Of a DNA stretch of 64,000 nt, positions 58,510 through 63,481 are shown piece after piece; the stretch's first letter is position 1, and the number at the start of each line of letters is the position of its first letter. The stretch lies in assembly GCF_023546765.1 (NCBI RefSeq), contig NZ_CP097484.1, positions 3,814,001 through 3,878,000 of the forward strand, written 5' to 3'. Origin of the DNA: Methylobacterium tardum. Lineage in GTDB: Bacteria; Pseudomonadota; Alphaproteobacteria; Rhizobiales; Beijerinckiaceae. The notes under the pieces were generated by a model. The model made no database searches. It worked only from the letters and a program-made list of their open reading frames with translations, and had not been told where the DNA came from. The translations under genes were made by a program, and so were the position numbers.

Positions 58510-60123
58510 TCAAACTGACGGCGCCTGCGGTTTTTCCCCTTGTATCCTATTTAACACACTTCGCACTGCGGCGTCCGCATCCACACACCCATAACCAAAA
58601 TAATGAGAATGACCTGACGAACTATAGTCGCCTTCTTCACCAATCTTCCTTGCCGTGTCAGTTAATATCGACTTTATCTCGCTACTTCGAAGAAGAGGAT
58701 TGATCGACAATAAGAGAGCGCATATACCTGCAACCAAGGGGCAAGCGCTCGATGTGCCACCAAACTCATCGGTATACGATCCAGCAGAGTAGCCAGCTTC
58801 GCTAATCTGACCATTCCTTACGTACGTTCCGATGACATCCGCAGTGGTGATGCGCCAGCCACCCGCTCCGCTTGACGGAGCCGAGACTGCTATGTGATCG
58901 CCAAAATTGGAATACGTTGCCCGTACGTCCTGACTAGTACTGGCAGAAACAGTAATGACATTCGGGTGACACGCAAATCCGTTGATTGAATTCTTTTCCG
59001 GGTCAAAAACGTTTCTATTGTCGTTTCCGGCAGCAAATACGATCACGCATCCGAGGCCACCTCTTCCATTCTCCGACGCCCGAGCGATTGCTTCTTGCTT
59101 TCTCGTTGAGAGTGGATAGTTGCGAGCACGTGGGGACCAGCTGCAACTGATCACAGCAGCGCCATTATCAACCGCCCAATCAAACCACTTTTCTATCTGG
59201 TCGTCTGAGAGAGACGCTCCCCACCTAATTGGCATCAGACGGCAAGCTGGCGCCGCTCCTACAATACCCACCGTGTCCGCGTTTCCGACAGCCACACCAG
59301 CGCAGGCGGTACCATGCCAGTCGCCAGCAAGATAGTCTGGAAGTGGTTCCGATGAAGACCGTTTGAAGTCCCATGGTGCAACGACCTTGTCTGCACCCGA
59401 TATATCCGGATGAGTAAGGTCGAAGCCGTCATCGATGATCGCTACAACAACCGACGGGTCCCCGAGACACTGCGAAGTTTGCCAAGCCTTCGTGATACGG
59501 GCGTCCGCTCCCTTCTTGAATCCCAGCGCGGTTCCGTGATGAAAACCAGTATTATCAAGATGCCACTGTCTGCACATCAGCTGATCGCTTGGAAACACGA
59601 AGGAAGTACTTTCAGCTTCGGAGTAAAAATCGGGTTCAGCAACCTCAACTAGTTTACTGCCCTGCAGCATAGATGAAACTTCCACGGCATCCGGGCCGTC
59701 AGCAAGCGAGCGTAAGATCAACGTCCGCTCGCCGCGCGCTTCCACAACTTCAGCCTTCAAGGATCCGATAAGTTGTTGAACATCAGCAGGAGATCCCTCG
59801 GCTGCAAATCGCACAAAAATAGTTCCCGTGGGCACGAATGGCACGCCGTCTGAGCTGGTATGATAAACATGCGCAATGTCGCCTACTACCGGACTTGCTT
59901 TTAGAATTTCTCTTCCCTCACCGGCTGTTGAAGCTACACTACTGATATCGGCGACGGAGTAGGGGCCCAGAGCCGACATATTTGACGTAGCTGTATTCAA
60001 GGTGGTCGCAAGTTCGCCGTCAAACTCGTGGCCGGCTCCGGGCTTTGGCGCGACGGCAAGTAGCTTATCGCTTACGGTTAGAGACGTTGGAACCCCGCCT
60101 AGATCTAGCTGAACAGTGCTCAT
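58510..60123 (-). CDS. S8 (subtilisin) family peptidase in RiPP operon
   Basis: A 537-residue serine protease without a signal peptide, so probably cytoplasmic. The catalytic triad is visible: Asp in VVVAIIDDGFDLTHPD (about 231), His in GDWHGTACAGVA (about 270) and Ser in EFGGTSSACPLVAG (about 458); the oxyanion Asn is in FAAGNDN. The first 175 residues form a non-catalytic N-terminal region. Start ATG 60123 with AGGGAGAA. It is the last gene of the four-gene operon and is a candidate for leader cleavage of the 56-aa precursor. Confidence 0.92.
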   Translation of the reverse strand: MSTVQLDLGGVPTSLTVSDKLLAVAPKPGAGHEFDGELATTLNTATSNMSALGPYSVADISSVASTAGEGREILKASPVVGDIAHVYHTSSDGVPFVPTGTIFVRFAAEGSPADVQQLIGSLKAEVVEARGERTLILRSLADGPDAVEVSSMLQGSKLVEVAEPDFYSEAESTSFVFPSDQLMCRQWHLDNTGFHHGTALGFKKGADARITKAWQTSQCLGDPSVVVAIIDDGFDLTHPDISGADKVVAPWDFKRSSSEPLPDYLAGDWHGTACAGVAVGNADTVGIVGAAPACRLMPIRWGASLSDDQIEKWFDWAVDNGAAVISCSWSPRARNYPLSTRKQEAIARASENGRGGLGCVIVFAAGNDNRNVFDPEKNSINGFACHPNVITVSASTSQDVRATYSNFGDHIAVSAPSSGAGGWRITTADVIGTYVRNGQISEAGYSAGSYTDEFGGTSSACPLVAGICALLLSINPLLRSSEIKSILTDTARKIGEEGDYSSSGHSHYFGYGCVDADAAVRSVLNRIQGEKPQAPSV

Positions 60124-60134
60124 TGGGTTCTCCC

Positions 60135-61136
60135 TTAACTCGAAACGGCAGCGCGCCCCGAGCGTAAAGTACGCCGAGAACAGCCGCCGAGAGACTTGGT
60201 TTTTGAGAGGAACTGATCCCAAACTATTTGTCCGATGAGAGGATCGTTGCGGCTCAATTTTCGCAACAAAACAACCAGCATATCATCCCAAAGTTCGAGA
60301 CAAGCGTTGTTTGGCCGTCGACTATAAAGTGCTCTCTTCAGGAGCAACGAACTGTCTTCTGGCGGGCCAGCGGCATGCGCGAGCCATTCTGCCGCGACAA
60401 TAGAAAATGCGTAAAGATTCTTTCTAACTTTTCTTGAAAAGACCGTTTCATTAAGGCCGGAAAAACTGAAGTGATCGCGAATTGCAGGAAACTCAGAGAT
60501 AATTTGGGAGCGGACGGTCGTTAAGAACCCATTATCAATGCCTCGTAGCTGATGTGCAGCCCAGATTCCTGGGACGCCATCGATTGAAATTGATTGATTT
60601 GTAAAAAGCACTTTCATAGCCAACTTCATGAGGTGATGAGCATTCGCCGCGTCCCCAGCCATGCGAGAAAGTCGGATGAGATTGTGCAAACACTGGTATC
60701 GGTGTACGTGCATGACATCTAATGAAAGCTGTGTAGCTATCAGGTAGTCTATATTAATTGAACAGATTAGCCTGTGTTGAGCTTGCGGCCACTCAGCATG
60801 TCTCGCGTTAACGTAGGCGGCCGCGGACTCGAGGAAACTTCTGCCGATGAAGTATGCTGGTTCAGAATGAGATCGCAAAATTTGATTCGAATAGAATGCA
60901 CTTCTCAATGTATCTCTTGCCCCCTTAGCTTCTCCTTTGGCTGCTTGCGCGATCCCCAGAGTGCATGCCGCCCGTGCTGTGCGCACGCCATTTCGCGCCC
61001 TGTCGTCCATGTGATGATCGAGAACGTCGGCAAATCTAGACTCGAATGCAGCTCCCGTAGCGTAGCTGTCAGGGGCCTGAGCATCGGTCAAGCCGACTAA
61101 GGGCCATCCGGCCATCTCTATCGAAGAGGCGCGCAT
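60135..61136 (-). CDS. Protein of unknown family in RiPP operon
   Basis: A 333-residue protein, largely helical by composition, with repeated 30-40 residue Ala/Leu-rich stretches (AACTLGIAQAAKGEAKGARD; HHLMKLAMKVLF), reminiscent of TPR-like solenoids. No catalytic motif is seen. Starts at 61136 or 61112 are possible; neither has a strong ribosome site. It sits 3 bp after the radical SAM stop and 11 bp before the protease start, so it belongs to the operon and is a likely helper for peptide recognition or scaffolding. Confidence 0.8.
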   Translation of the reverse strand: MRASSIEMAGWPLVGLTDAQAPDSYATGAAFESRFADVLDHHMDDRARNGVRTARAACTLGIAQAAKGEAKGARDTLRSAFYSNQILRSHSEPAYFIGRSFLESAAAYVNARHAEWPQAQHRLICSINIDYLIATQLSLDVMHVHRYQCLHNLIRLSRMAGDAANAHHLMKLAMKVLFTNQSISIDGVPGIWAAHQLRGIDNGFLTTVRSQIISEFPAIRDHFSFSGLNETVFSRKVRKNLYAFSIVAAEWLAHAAGPPEDSSLLLKRALYSRRPNNACLELWDDMLVVLLRKLSRNDPLIGQIVWDQFLSKTKSLGGCSRRTLRSGRAAVSS

Positions 61137-61139
61137 AGG

Positions 61140-62513
61140 CTATGTGACCGCTTTATGAGCCCCAACAATCTTAGTTGCCCTGTTACTAATCAGATCTTTG
61201 ATTATAAGGCGCTGTGGTAAGTTAAACTTTTCCGGAGGGCAAGGAATGTTTCCCTCCTGCCAGCTTTTCGGGCACTTGCCTCCACATACAGGAAAAATTT
61301 GGCATTTAGAGCATTGGTATGCTCCGGAAGAGACTTCATCGTAGAAATTCGTGAAAGGTAAATCGTCCGAACGAATGTGATTGTCGACGGCGCCAATGGC
61401 ATATTTATTTGTTGTGGTGCTAGAGTCGCCGTTACGAATATTATAGGCTTCGACGTGGCTAACTTCAGTGCAGTTGTAGACGTTGCCGAATGCGTCGTAC
61501 AACTCAGAATCCGGTTTGAAGACCATGCATGCAATTGTTGTACGCTTAGGAATTAAGTCGACTTTATACCCGAGCGCCAGCATCTTAAGAAACCACTCGA
61601 CCTGCAAAGCGGCAAATGCCGATGCGGTCAGTGCCTGATCGGCGCCGGCGGTTCCCCAAATATGGACGGGGGCGAAATACAAGGAAGCTATGCGGTTGTG
61701 TAAGCCGCGCCTGTGCAGTTCTAAAATTAATTCATGTACCCCATGCACATTGGAGCTATCCACGTTGCATCGGATGCTAACACTGATTTTATCTCTATGA
61801 TTATCGAGCACCGAGATGATGTTATCGAGTATACGATGGAACGTGCCCTTCCCAGACTTAGTACCACGGCGATTGTCATGGATTTCGTCGGGACCATCCA
61901 GAGTGATCTCGGCGCGTATGACGCCAATCTGCAACAGGTCTGCCGCAGCCGCTGACGTGAATGCTAGTCCGTTTGTAATAATTCGCCCTAAAAATGCGAC
62001 ATCATAATAACCACATAATGATCGAAGTTCCGCGCCGACTTTCCGTATCTGAGGCAGAGCATTAAGCGGTTCAGCACCGAACCAGCCGATTTCTAACTGA
62101 GTATAACGCTTTGTCTTTAGCTTTTCATCGGCGCGAGCGACGATGCTTTTTATCGTTTCATCGGTAAGTCGACGCTTTGAATGGGTTTGCCCACAGTAGG
62201 AGCAACTTAGCTGACATGAAGCCGTGGGTTGAACGACGAGGAACAGTGTACTGTAAGTCATAGAAGCATTAGCATTTTCATTGAGTACGCTGCGAAATTC
62301 ATCTTCGATTGATGGTACTATGATCCCGCTTTCTTTTAATCTCTGGAAGTCGTTCAAAGTAAGTCGATCAAACTGATTTGTTGCCAGCTGATCCCATAAT
62401 GAGGTCGATAGCCGCATGGTCTGCCCGGTCCTGGCACTGTAGGCCAAGACCGGATCAGAACCAGACGATGCTGCAGTGCGAGATGTTGTGACGTAGCGGG
62501 AAAGTTTGTACAT
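61140..62513 (-). CDS. Radical SAM/SPASM peptide-modifying enzyme
   Basis: A 457-residue enzyme. The SAM-binding Fe-S cluster motif is CQLSCSYC (Cys 100, 104, 107), followed by the GGEP-like FGAEP and a TIM barrel. The C-terminal SPASM region has seven cysteines (about 329, 348, 401, 404, 410, 414, 425) for auxiliary clusters, as in YCSKCQIFPVCGGKCPKSW. The first 90 residues are compatible with a peptide-recognition domain (RRE-like position). It lies 57 bp after the 56-aa peptide gene. It is predicted to install a thioether or C-C crosslink on the Cys/Gly tail; the chemistry is not known. Confidence 0.93.
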   Translation of the reverse strand: MYKLSRYVTTSRTAASSGSDPVLAYSARTGQTMRLSTSLWDQLATNQFDRLTLNDFQRLKESGIIVPSIEDEFRSVLNENANASMTYSTLFLVVQPTASCQLSCSYCGQTHSKRRLTDETIKSIVARADEKLKTKRYTQLEIGWFGAEPLNALPQIRKVGAELRSLCGYYDVAFLGRIITNGLAFTSAAAADLLQIGVIRAEITLDGPDEIHDNRRGTKSGKGTFHRILDNIISVLDNHRDKISVSIRCNVDSSNVHGVHELILELHRRGLHNRIASLYFAPVHIWGTAGADQALTASAFAALQVEWFLKMLALGYKVDLIPKRTTIACMVFKPDSELYDAFGNVYNCTEVSHVEAYNIRNGDSSTTTNKYAIGAVDNHIRSDDLPFTNFYDEVSSGAYQCSKCQIFPVCGGKCPKSWQEGNIPCPPEKFNLPQRLIIKDLISNRATKIVGAHKAVT

Positions 62514-62570
62514 CGATGATGCTCGCGCTGCAGTAAAGATTACGGCTTATGCGGCGAACTGAGATACAGC

Positions 62571-62741
62571 TTAAGCTCCGCCGCACCCACAGCCATTCCA
62601 GGCTAGATTCCCCTGGTCATCTTCTGTTATAGGCTGAGCTTCTTTTTCATTCTGAACAACGGCCGCATCGTCATCAACTTCTACAAATTCGATCTCTAGA
62701 TCATAGCCTTCAGGAATTTTGAGCTTCAACTTCTTGCCCAT
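62571..62741 (-). CDS. Candidate RiPP precursor peptide
   Basis: A 56-residue peptide from ATG 62741, with GGAGGG four bases upstream; an in-frame ATG at 62753 would add four residues. The leader is basic then strongly acidic (EIEFVEVDDDAAVVQNEKEA). The last ten residues, AWNGCGCGGA, hold two cysteines among glycines and form the likely core. Cys-Gly tails of this kind occur in radical-SAM RiPP families. It starts the operon of peptide, radical SAM enzyme, unknown protein and S8 protease. Confidence 0.85.
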   Translation of the reverse strand: MGKKLKLKIPEGYDLEIEFVEVDDDAAVVQNEKEAQPITEDDQGNLAWNGCGCGGA

Positions 62742-62974: not shown

Positions 62975-63481
62975 ATGTTTGACGAGGTTGCGTATGGACT
63001 GACCGTCCTAACTGGGATGCATCGTATTGCGGTCGTGGCGGTGTGGGCTCCAACGAGCATCCAGCATGTTCGGTGTCCTGGCTTTGCCTACGAGTTGCCT
63101 GTCTGGGCACCACGACGAGAAGCCGGGCTCGTCATGCCCGGCTGCACCAACGAGGCGATGAGCCTGCACCTCGAAGAAATCGCGAGCGCCGTTGCCCCCG
63201 GCGCGCACACCGTGCTGCTGCTCGATCAGGCCGGCGGGCACACGACCTGGAATCTCGTGGTGCCCGCCAACATCACCCTACTGCCGCTGCCGGCGCGCTC
63301 TCCCGAACTCAACCCGGTCGAGAACCTCTGGCGGTTCATGCGTGACAACTGGCTCGGCAACCGCGTCTTCACAACCTACGCCGACATCCTCGAGCATTGC
63401 TGCGACGCTTGGCGCAGCTTCATCGACCAGCCCTGGCGCATCATGTTCATCGGCCTGCGCACGTGGGCGCATCGGTCCTGA
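62975..63481 (+). pseudogene. IS630-family transposase, 5'-truncated
   Basis: From about 63,122 to the stop the frame matches the C-terminal half of IS630-type DDE transposases: TNEAMSLHLEEIASAVAPG, HTVLLLDQAGGHTTW (second Asp) and LPARSPELNPVENLWRF (Glu), ending in GLRTWAHRS. The first 50 residues (MFDEVAYGL onward) do not match, and the HTH and first Asp region are missing. It is therefore a remnant, not an active element. Confidence 0.85.

Follow-up and report, generated by a model that had tools for sequence, protein, structure and literature searches.

In the streptococcal radical SAM RiPP (ribosomally synthesized and post-translationally modified peptide) system NxxcA/NxxcB, the enzyme NxxcB builds a Cβ-thioether within an NxxC motif, according to PMC8326336 and PMC13361665. 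S8 proteases are described as taking off RiPP leaders, which ElxP does in the cytoplasm (PMC10885120), and tetratricopeptide-like genes were reported earlier from putative RiPP clusters of Bacteroidales (PMC10352776). Here we describe a four-gene locus in a 64,000 nucleotide stretch of the Methylobacterium tardum genome (NZ_CP097484.1, positions 3,814,001 to 3,878,000; hereafter the window), which encodes a small Cys-Gly peptide, a radical SAM/SPASM enzyme, a 333 aa protein resembling tetratricopeptide repeat (TPR) proteins and an S8 subtilase. The locus is very likely a RiPP pathway, and the four genes most likely constitute a RiPP operon acquired horizontally as a single block. We consider it moderately probable that in this acquired operon the enzyme crosslinks the peptide as a non-alpha thioether, with the TPR-like protein as a helper and the S8 protease cutting the leader. 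A literature search recognised no paper on this enzyme family; subscription literature was outside its scope, and the family may be in print.

All four genes lie on the minus strand within 58510-62741, and re-measuring the gaps between them gave 57, 3 and 11 bp, as claimed in an earlier note on this DNA. The precursor peptide gene (62571..62741, 56 aa, taken from the list of open reading frames, ORFs; ATG after GGAGGG) is followed by the gene of the radical SAM/SPASM peptide maturase (61140..62513, 457 aa; Pfam Radical_SAM, E 2.8e-10), that of the all-helical TPR-like protein (60135..61136, 333 aa; assigned by its jackhmmer family, predicted model and TPR matches) and that of the S8 subtilase (58510..60123, 537 aa; Pfam Peptidase_S8, E 6.4e-46; ATG after AAGGGAG). 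Good ribosome-binding sequences precede the start codons of the peptide gene (62741) and the S8 gene (60123); a promoter and terminator scan gave nothing above shuffled sequences. The GC content is 0.46 for the peptide gene, 0.48 for the enzyme gene, 0.50 for the 333 aa gene and 0.53 for the S8 gene, whereas 28 long ORFs of the window below 44 kb, non-overlapping longest-ORF picks unverified as genes, average 0.685. The lower GC than in the core, pointed out before, is thus borne out (46–53% vs. 68.5% on average). At third codon positions (GC3), the values are 0.421, 0.493, 0.491 and 0.483 in the same gene order, compared to 0.760 in the 28 ORFs and 0.824 in the next ORF downstream of the block. 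Transfer had been suggested earlier, and the foreign, uniform composition of the four genes agrees with it. Of the island on which the locus had been placed, the low-GC block stands, and the seven neighbouring ORFs scanned had Pfam matches at E 0.01 to NUDIX and DDE_3 only. GC falls at about 58400 and climbs gradually between 62800 and 63100, where the upstream edge of the block adjoins a DDE_3 transposase ORF (62975..63481, plus strand; Pfam) outside the pathway.

The precursor (MGKKLKLKIPEGYDLEIEFVEV...AWNGCGCGGA) carries its Cys-Gly core at the C-terminus. Its nearest relative is a peptide of Segetibacter koreensis (locus L020), WDGCGCGGGNCSC, whose leader resembles that of the window peptide (14/50 residues identical, E 3e-6 in a single comparison) and whose ORF stops 64 bp before a gene of the same enzyme family. 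As leader and downstream enzyme family recur together in Segetibacter, we regard the window peptide as a real gene. In both peptides Trp occupies position −3 of the first Cys; NxxC is found in the tail of the Segetibacter peptide only. A truncated precursor copy lies just upstream in the Segetibacter locus, and a second, weaker leader-like peptide was detected at locus L007 (21%). A peptide profile search returned 4 proteins from 10 candidates and is circular, as all matches come from the three query organisms. Scanning the peptide and the 333 aa protein against Pfam, every match had an E-value above 0.06. Near the Segetibacter locus, L020:11939-13225 encodes a TP_methylase protein whose N-terminus has a weak LigA-like match; we take it to be reminiscent of borosins.

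In the enzyme, the radical SAM motif CX3CX2C is intact (C100/C104/C107) and all seven Cys of the SPASM domain are present (329, 348, 401, 404, 410, 414, 425). CteB, anSME, ChlB and SkfB all match its fold, the best match being a thioether maturase; the predicted model aligns to CteB over residues 5-441. The N-terminus has a strand-helix arrangement that may represent a RiPP recognition element (RRE), and the CteB alignment begins at residue 5. TIGR04463 is the best model for the window enzyme and is matched by 30/30 rows of an alignment of this enzyme with 29 of the 120 matches listed (157 found); none of the 25 NCBIfam models listed reaches its cut-off with the window enzyme. A common clade with the enzymes of L020 or L007 was considered and receives no support from the tree.

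The genomic surroundings of the enzyme family were compared in 80 loci, kept from 187 relatives in genome contigs, with stretches of up to 8 kb on each side, some ended by contig ends. Hosts are Bacteroidota, Cyanobacteriota, Pseudomonadota, Planctomycetota and others (32–41% identity). Closer to M. tardum the family is rare: its own genome alone matched among 61 relatives at 1e-60 and among 385 genomes of its class at 1e-80, and four of 397 genomes in its order matched at 1e-60, including its own and two weak matches. One order-level match is the Roseibium aquae locus L104 (= L040), and no S8 Ser motif occurred in the three order-level enzyme stretches examined. Plasmids yielded two radical SAM matches; 34 pattern stretches from viral contigs contained no relatives. 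One Bacteroidota stretch (L099:5635-9797) holds two enzyme-family ORFs, one of them only 217 aa long, together with a P450 and a two-piece TPR-like gene.

Upstream of the related enzyme genes, 49/80 loci had a plus-strand ORF containing NxxC at least once, vs. 22/80 on the opposite strand, and 31/80 vs. 1/80 had one containing it twice or more. Asn stood at −3 of 162 of the 712 upstream plus-strand Cys; the figure for the opposite strand is 42 of 743. These counts over 80 loci take in overlapping ORFs, and the single-NxxC matches in L021, L047, L050, L054 and L060 look spurious. Of the 78 Cys in 26 hand-picked precursors (the window, 24 of the 80 loci and L090), 54 are preceded by Asn at −3 and five more by Asp, while at any other offset between −6 and +6 the two together never exceed 17; 23 of the 26 precursors contain [ND]xxC at least once. 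NCBIfam gave two weak single matches for this set (class IIb bacteriocin, E 0.0025; xseB, E 0.0072). The layout of radical SAM RiPPs, with a peptide gene before the enzyme gene, had been claimed for the window earlier; it is supported by the similar leader in Segetibacter and by the upstream Cys peptides of the homologues, which are indeed accompanied by small peptides.

Several of these loci have features of their own. In L002-L004, L006, L026 and L075 (Nitrobacter, Paracoccus and a metagenome-assembled genome), precursors with DQNTGCQNSGCGG stand before the radical SAM gene, which is followed by a protein of 708-836 aa clustering with the YcaO of L038, the only member scanned; this pathway would possibly combine a thioether with an azoline or thioamide. 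A six-gene version in L042 (Cupriavidus) and L090 (Rhizobium etli plasmid pRetIE4803b) consists of an NSGC peptide, the radical SAM enzyme, a 351-365 aa protein, JmjC, the TPR-like protein and a last gene of 160-163 aa, annotated as GNAT in R. etli, where the locus adjoins an adenylate/guanylate cyclase and a cyclic-nucleotide-binding/TIR-like gene. Two cyanobacterial peptide ORFs before the enzyme gene (L010:7444-7782, 112 aa; L025:5966-6349, 127 aa) have, judged by eye, an export-signal-like start.

The 333 aa protein had been described as belonging to no recognised family. It can now be called TPR-like and RiPP-associated, as its predicted model is all-helical, its structure matches are to TPR proteins, including peptide receptors of the Rap and NprR type, and its family recurs in RiPP loci. 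Using jackhmmer, the family was detected in 31/80 loci (29 of these homologues were aligned with the window protein, omitting L011 and L062, the latter a doubtful ORF of 706 aa), and its gene directly follows the enzyme gene in 23 of 75 loci, five enzyme genes of the 80 being unassigned. Further, it occurs in four of 198 Bacteroidota genomes, every time in a RiPP locus; two of the four (G444 = L020, G664) are query rows. At L100:5637-11573, the family adjoins a lanthipeptide dehydratase (Lant_dehydr_N/C) and a GG-leader peptide. Since it also occurs beside a lanthipeptide dehydratase, the TPR-like protein is a candidate for a helper common to different RiPP classes, as judged from gene neighbourhoods.

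The subtilase contains the Asp, His and Ser motifs, read by eye as AIIDDGFD, DWHGTACAG and GGTSSACP, behind an N-terminal region of about 180 residues; no signal peptide is visible by eye, no predictor having been run. Its best 120 relatives, own copy excluded, share about 47–56% identity, and many are fused to an S1/P1 nuclease domain. At 1e-100, only the window copy was found in 349 Pseudomonadota genomes and none in 198 Bacteroidota and 244 cyanobacterial genomes, an empty answer that is uninformative without a positive; plasmids gave no S8 match at 1e-90. The four-part set had been put forward as a system that might recur around the enzyme. Peptide, enzyme and 333 aa family do recur in this way and form the recurring core; the S8 protease is unseen in the stretches examined around the 80 related loci, and a conserved four-gene system is rejected on this basis. 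The closest enzyme (P0001) and an S8 relative (P0125) lie on contigs of at most 26339 bases and of 26335 bases, respectively, and may possibly be neighbours. In the Segetibacter locus, the gene after the TPR-like gene has a weak C39-like match, and in nine Bacteroidota loci (L011, L016, L034, L036, L039, L066, L068, L072, L076) a gene of 730-767 aa, all one cluster, comes next after the TPR-like gene; by its start motif, we take it to resemble a C39 transporter. Based on these two cases and the S8 gene of the window, a protease slot with a variable occupant seems to exist in the family.

For the pathway itself, we infer the kind of bond, what the TPR-like protein does and how the leader is removed as follows. 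The precursor leader would dock on the RRE-like N-terminal domain, the TPR-like protein holding either leader or enzyme. Family and fold suggest that the radical SAM cluster then takes a hydrogen from a residue that shortly precedes a core Cys, to which that Cys would be joined as a non-alpha thioether; the SPASM clusters would assist, as they do in CteB and NxxcB. In WNGCGCGGA, Trp48 or Asn49 could be bound in this way to Cys51 and/or Cys53. Finally, position, composition and the same-slot protein in Segetibacter suggest cytoplasmic leader removal by the S8 protease, comparable to the part that ElxP plays for epilancin.

Several observations weigh against this thioether pathway with a dedicated S8 protease. 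The window peptide itself is without NxxC, its W-[ND]-G-C-G-C-G-G core is shared by the Segetibacter peptide alone among the 26 precursors, and an upstream NxxC ORF was not found in 31/80 loci. In the tree, the enzyme forms a long branch and has no near relatives (42–43% identity at best among the 120 matches listed of 157), and the bond type is unreadable from the fold, as several SPASM chemistries match. An exporter gene is not among the four genes, and any gene from the same donor would look alike in composition. As for the protease, no S8 was detected in the 80 loci (1210 called genes, each 60 aa or longer) by tblastn, phmmer (E up to 0.1) or a Ser-motif pattern, and around the other S8 copy in the genus (L092), radical SAM and TPR-like homologues are absent from a 16-kb stretch.

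The lack of S8 in the stretches of the related loci also speaks for a three-gene cassette of peptide, radical SAM enzyme and TPR-like protein, in which the S8 protease is a passenger with a role of its own and an unrelated host protease cuts the leader. The S8 family is large (3030 relatives among 8000 scored candidates) and occurs without the radical SAM enzyme in the same genus. On the other hand, the S8 gene follows after 11 bp with a ribosome-binding sequence, on the same strand and with a GC3 equal to that of the enzyme and TPR-like genes, a weakly protease-like protein fills the same slot in Segetibacter, and the gene is not a general resident, since at E 1e-100 only 2/111 genus genomes carry it. 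We regard a passenger S8 as possible, yet rather doubtful. That the enzyme makes another bond, i.e., an alpha-thioether, a carbon-carbon or a Trp crosslink, is likewise possible but rather doubtful: SPASM enzymes of several chemistries fit its fold, and the core, which lacks NxxC, carries Trp48 three residues before its first Cys, with Trp also in Segetibacter. The family-wide Asn at −3 of Cys and the thioether maturase as best fold match argue against such a bond. A conflict or signalling module, in which the TPR-like protein binds the modified peptide and the S8 protease is an effector under its control, appears very unlikely. The structure matches to Rap- and NprR-type receptors fit it, and PMC10352776 mentions a pheromone-binding role of such proteins in other bacteria. 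However, PADLOC gave a generic subtilase model for the S8 protein only and nothing for the enzyme or the TPR-like protein, which also rejects a known defence system, and the family's position beside a lanthipeptide dehydratase fits a biosynthetic helper.

A wider proposal, which we rate as unlikely, is a pan-bacterial, uncatalogued RiPP family of RRE-radical SAM/SPASM enzymes and TPR-like proteins based on NxxC thioethers. The window would be a divergent member whose C-x-C core has Trp48 instead of Asn at −3; this would lead to a Trp-Cys beta-thioether or to small fused rings within GCGCGG, and a recruited S8 protease would release the product. An orphan operon is now linked to a radical SAM enzyme family across Bacteroidota, Cyanobacteriota, Pseudomonadota, Planctomycetota and others. 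The NxxC rule renders the chemistry of this family directly testable, and the departure of the window core from NxxC offers a natural test of what the enzyme requires.

Compared with described systems, the window enzyme is no member of TIGR04463 (rSAM_vs_C_rich maturase), as it scores 186.7 bits against a cut-off of 525. From the SCIFF maturase CteB (5wgg, 5why) it differs by an identity of only 17%, and the 56 aa window precursor has two Cys, not six. The window S8 shares with ElxP and other RiPP leader proteases the S8 family and the lack of a visible signal peptide, but belongs to a large family for which no RiPP tie was found here. With NxxcA/NxxcB, whose beta-thioether joins Asn20 and Cys23, the locus has the radical SAM RiPP logic in common, and many family precursors contain NxxC (a comparison of motifs only); unlike that system, the window has the core WNGCGCGGA, without NxxC, as well as a TPR-like protein and an S8 protease. 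The Segetibacter koreensis locus differs in the weakly C39-like protein in the S8 slot, an extra GNCSC tail and an enzyme of 37% identity, yet shares with the window the leader, the W[ND]GCGCGG core, the enzyme family and the TPR-like protein.
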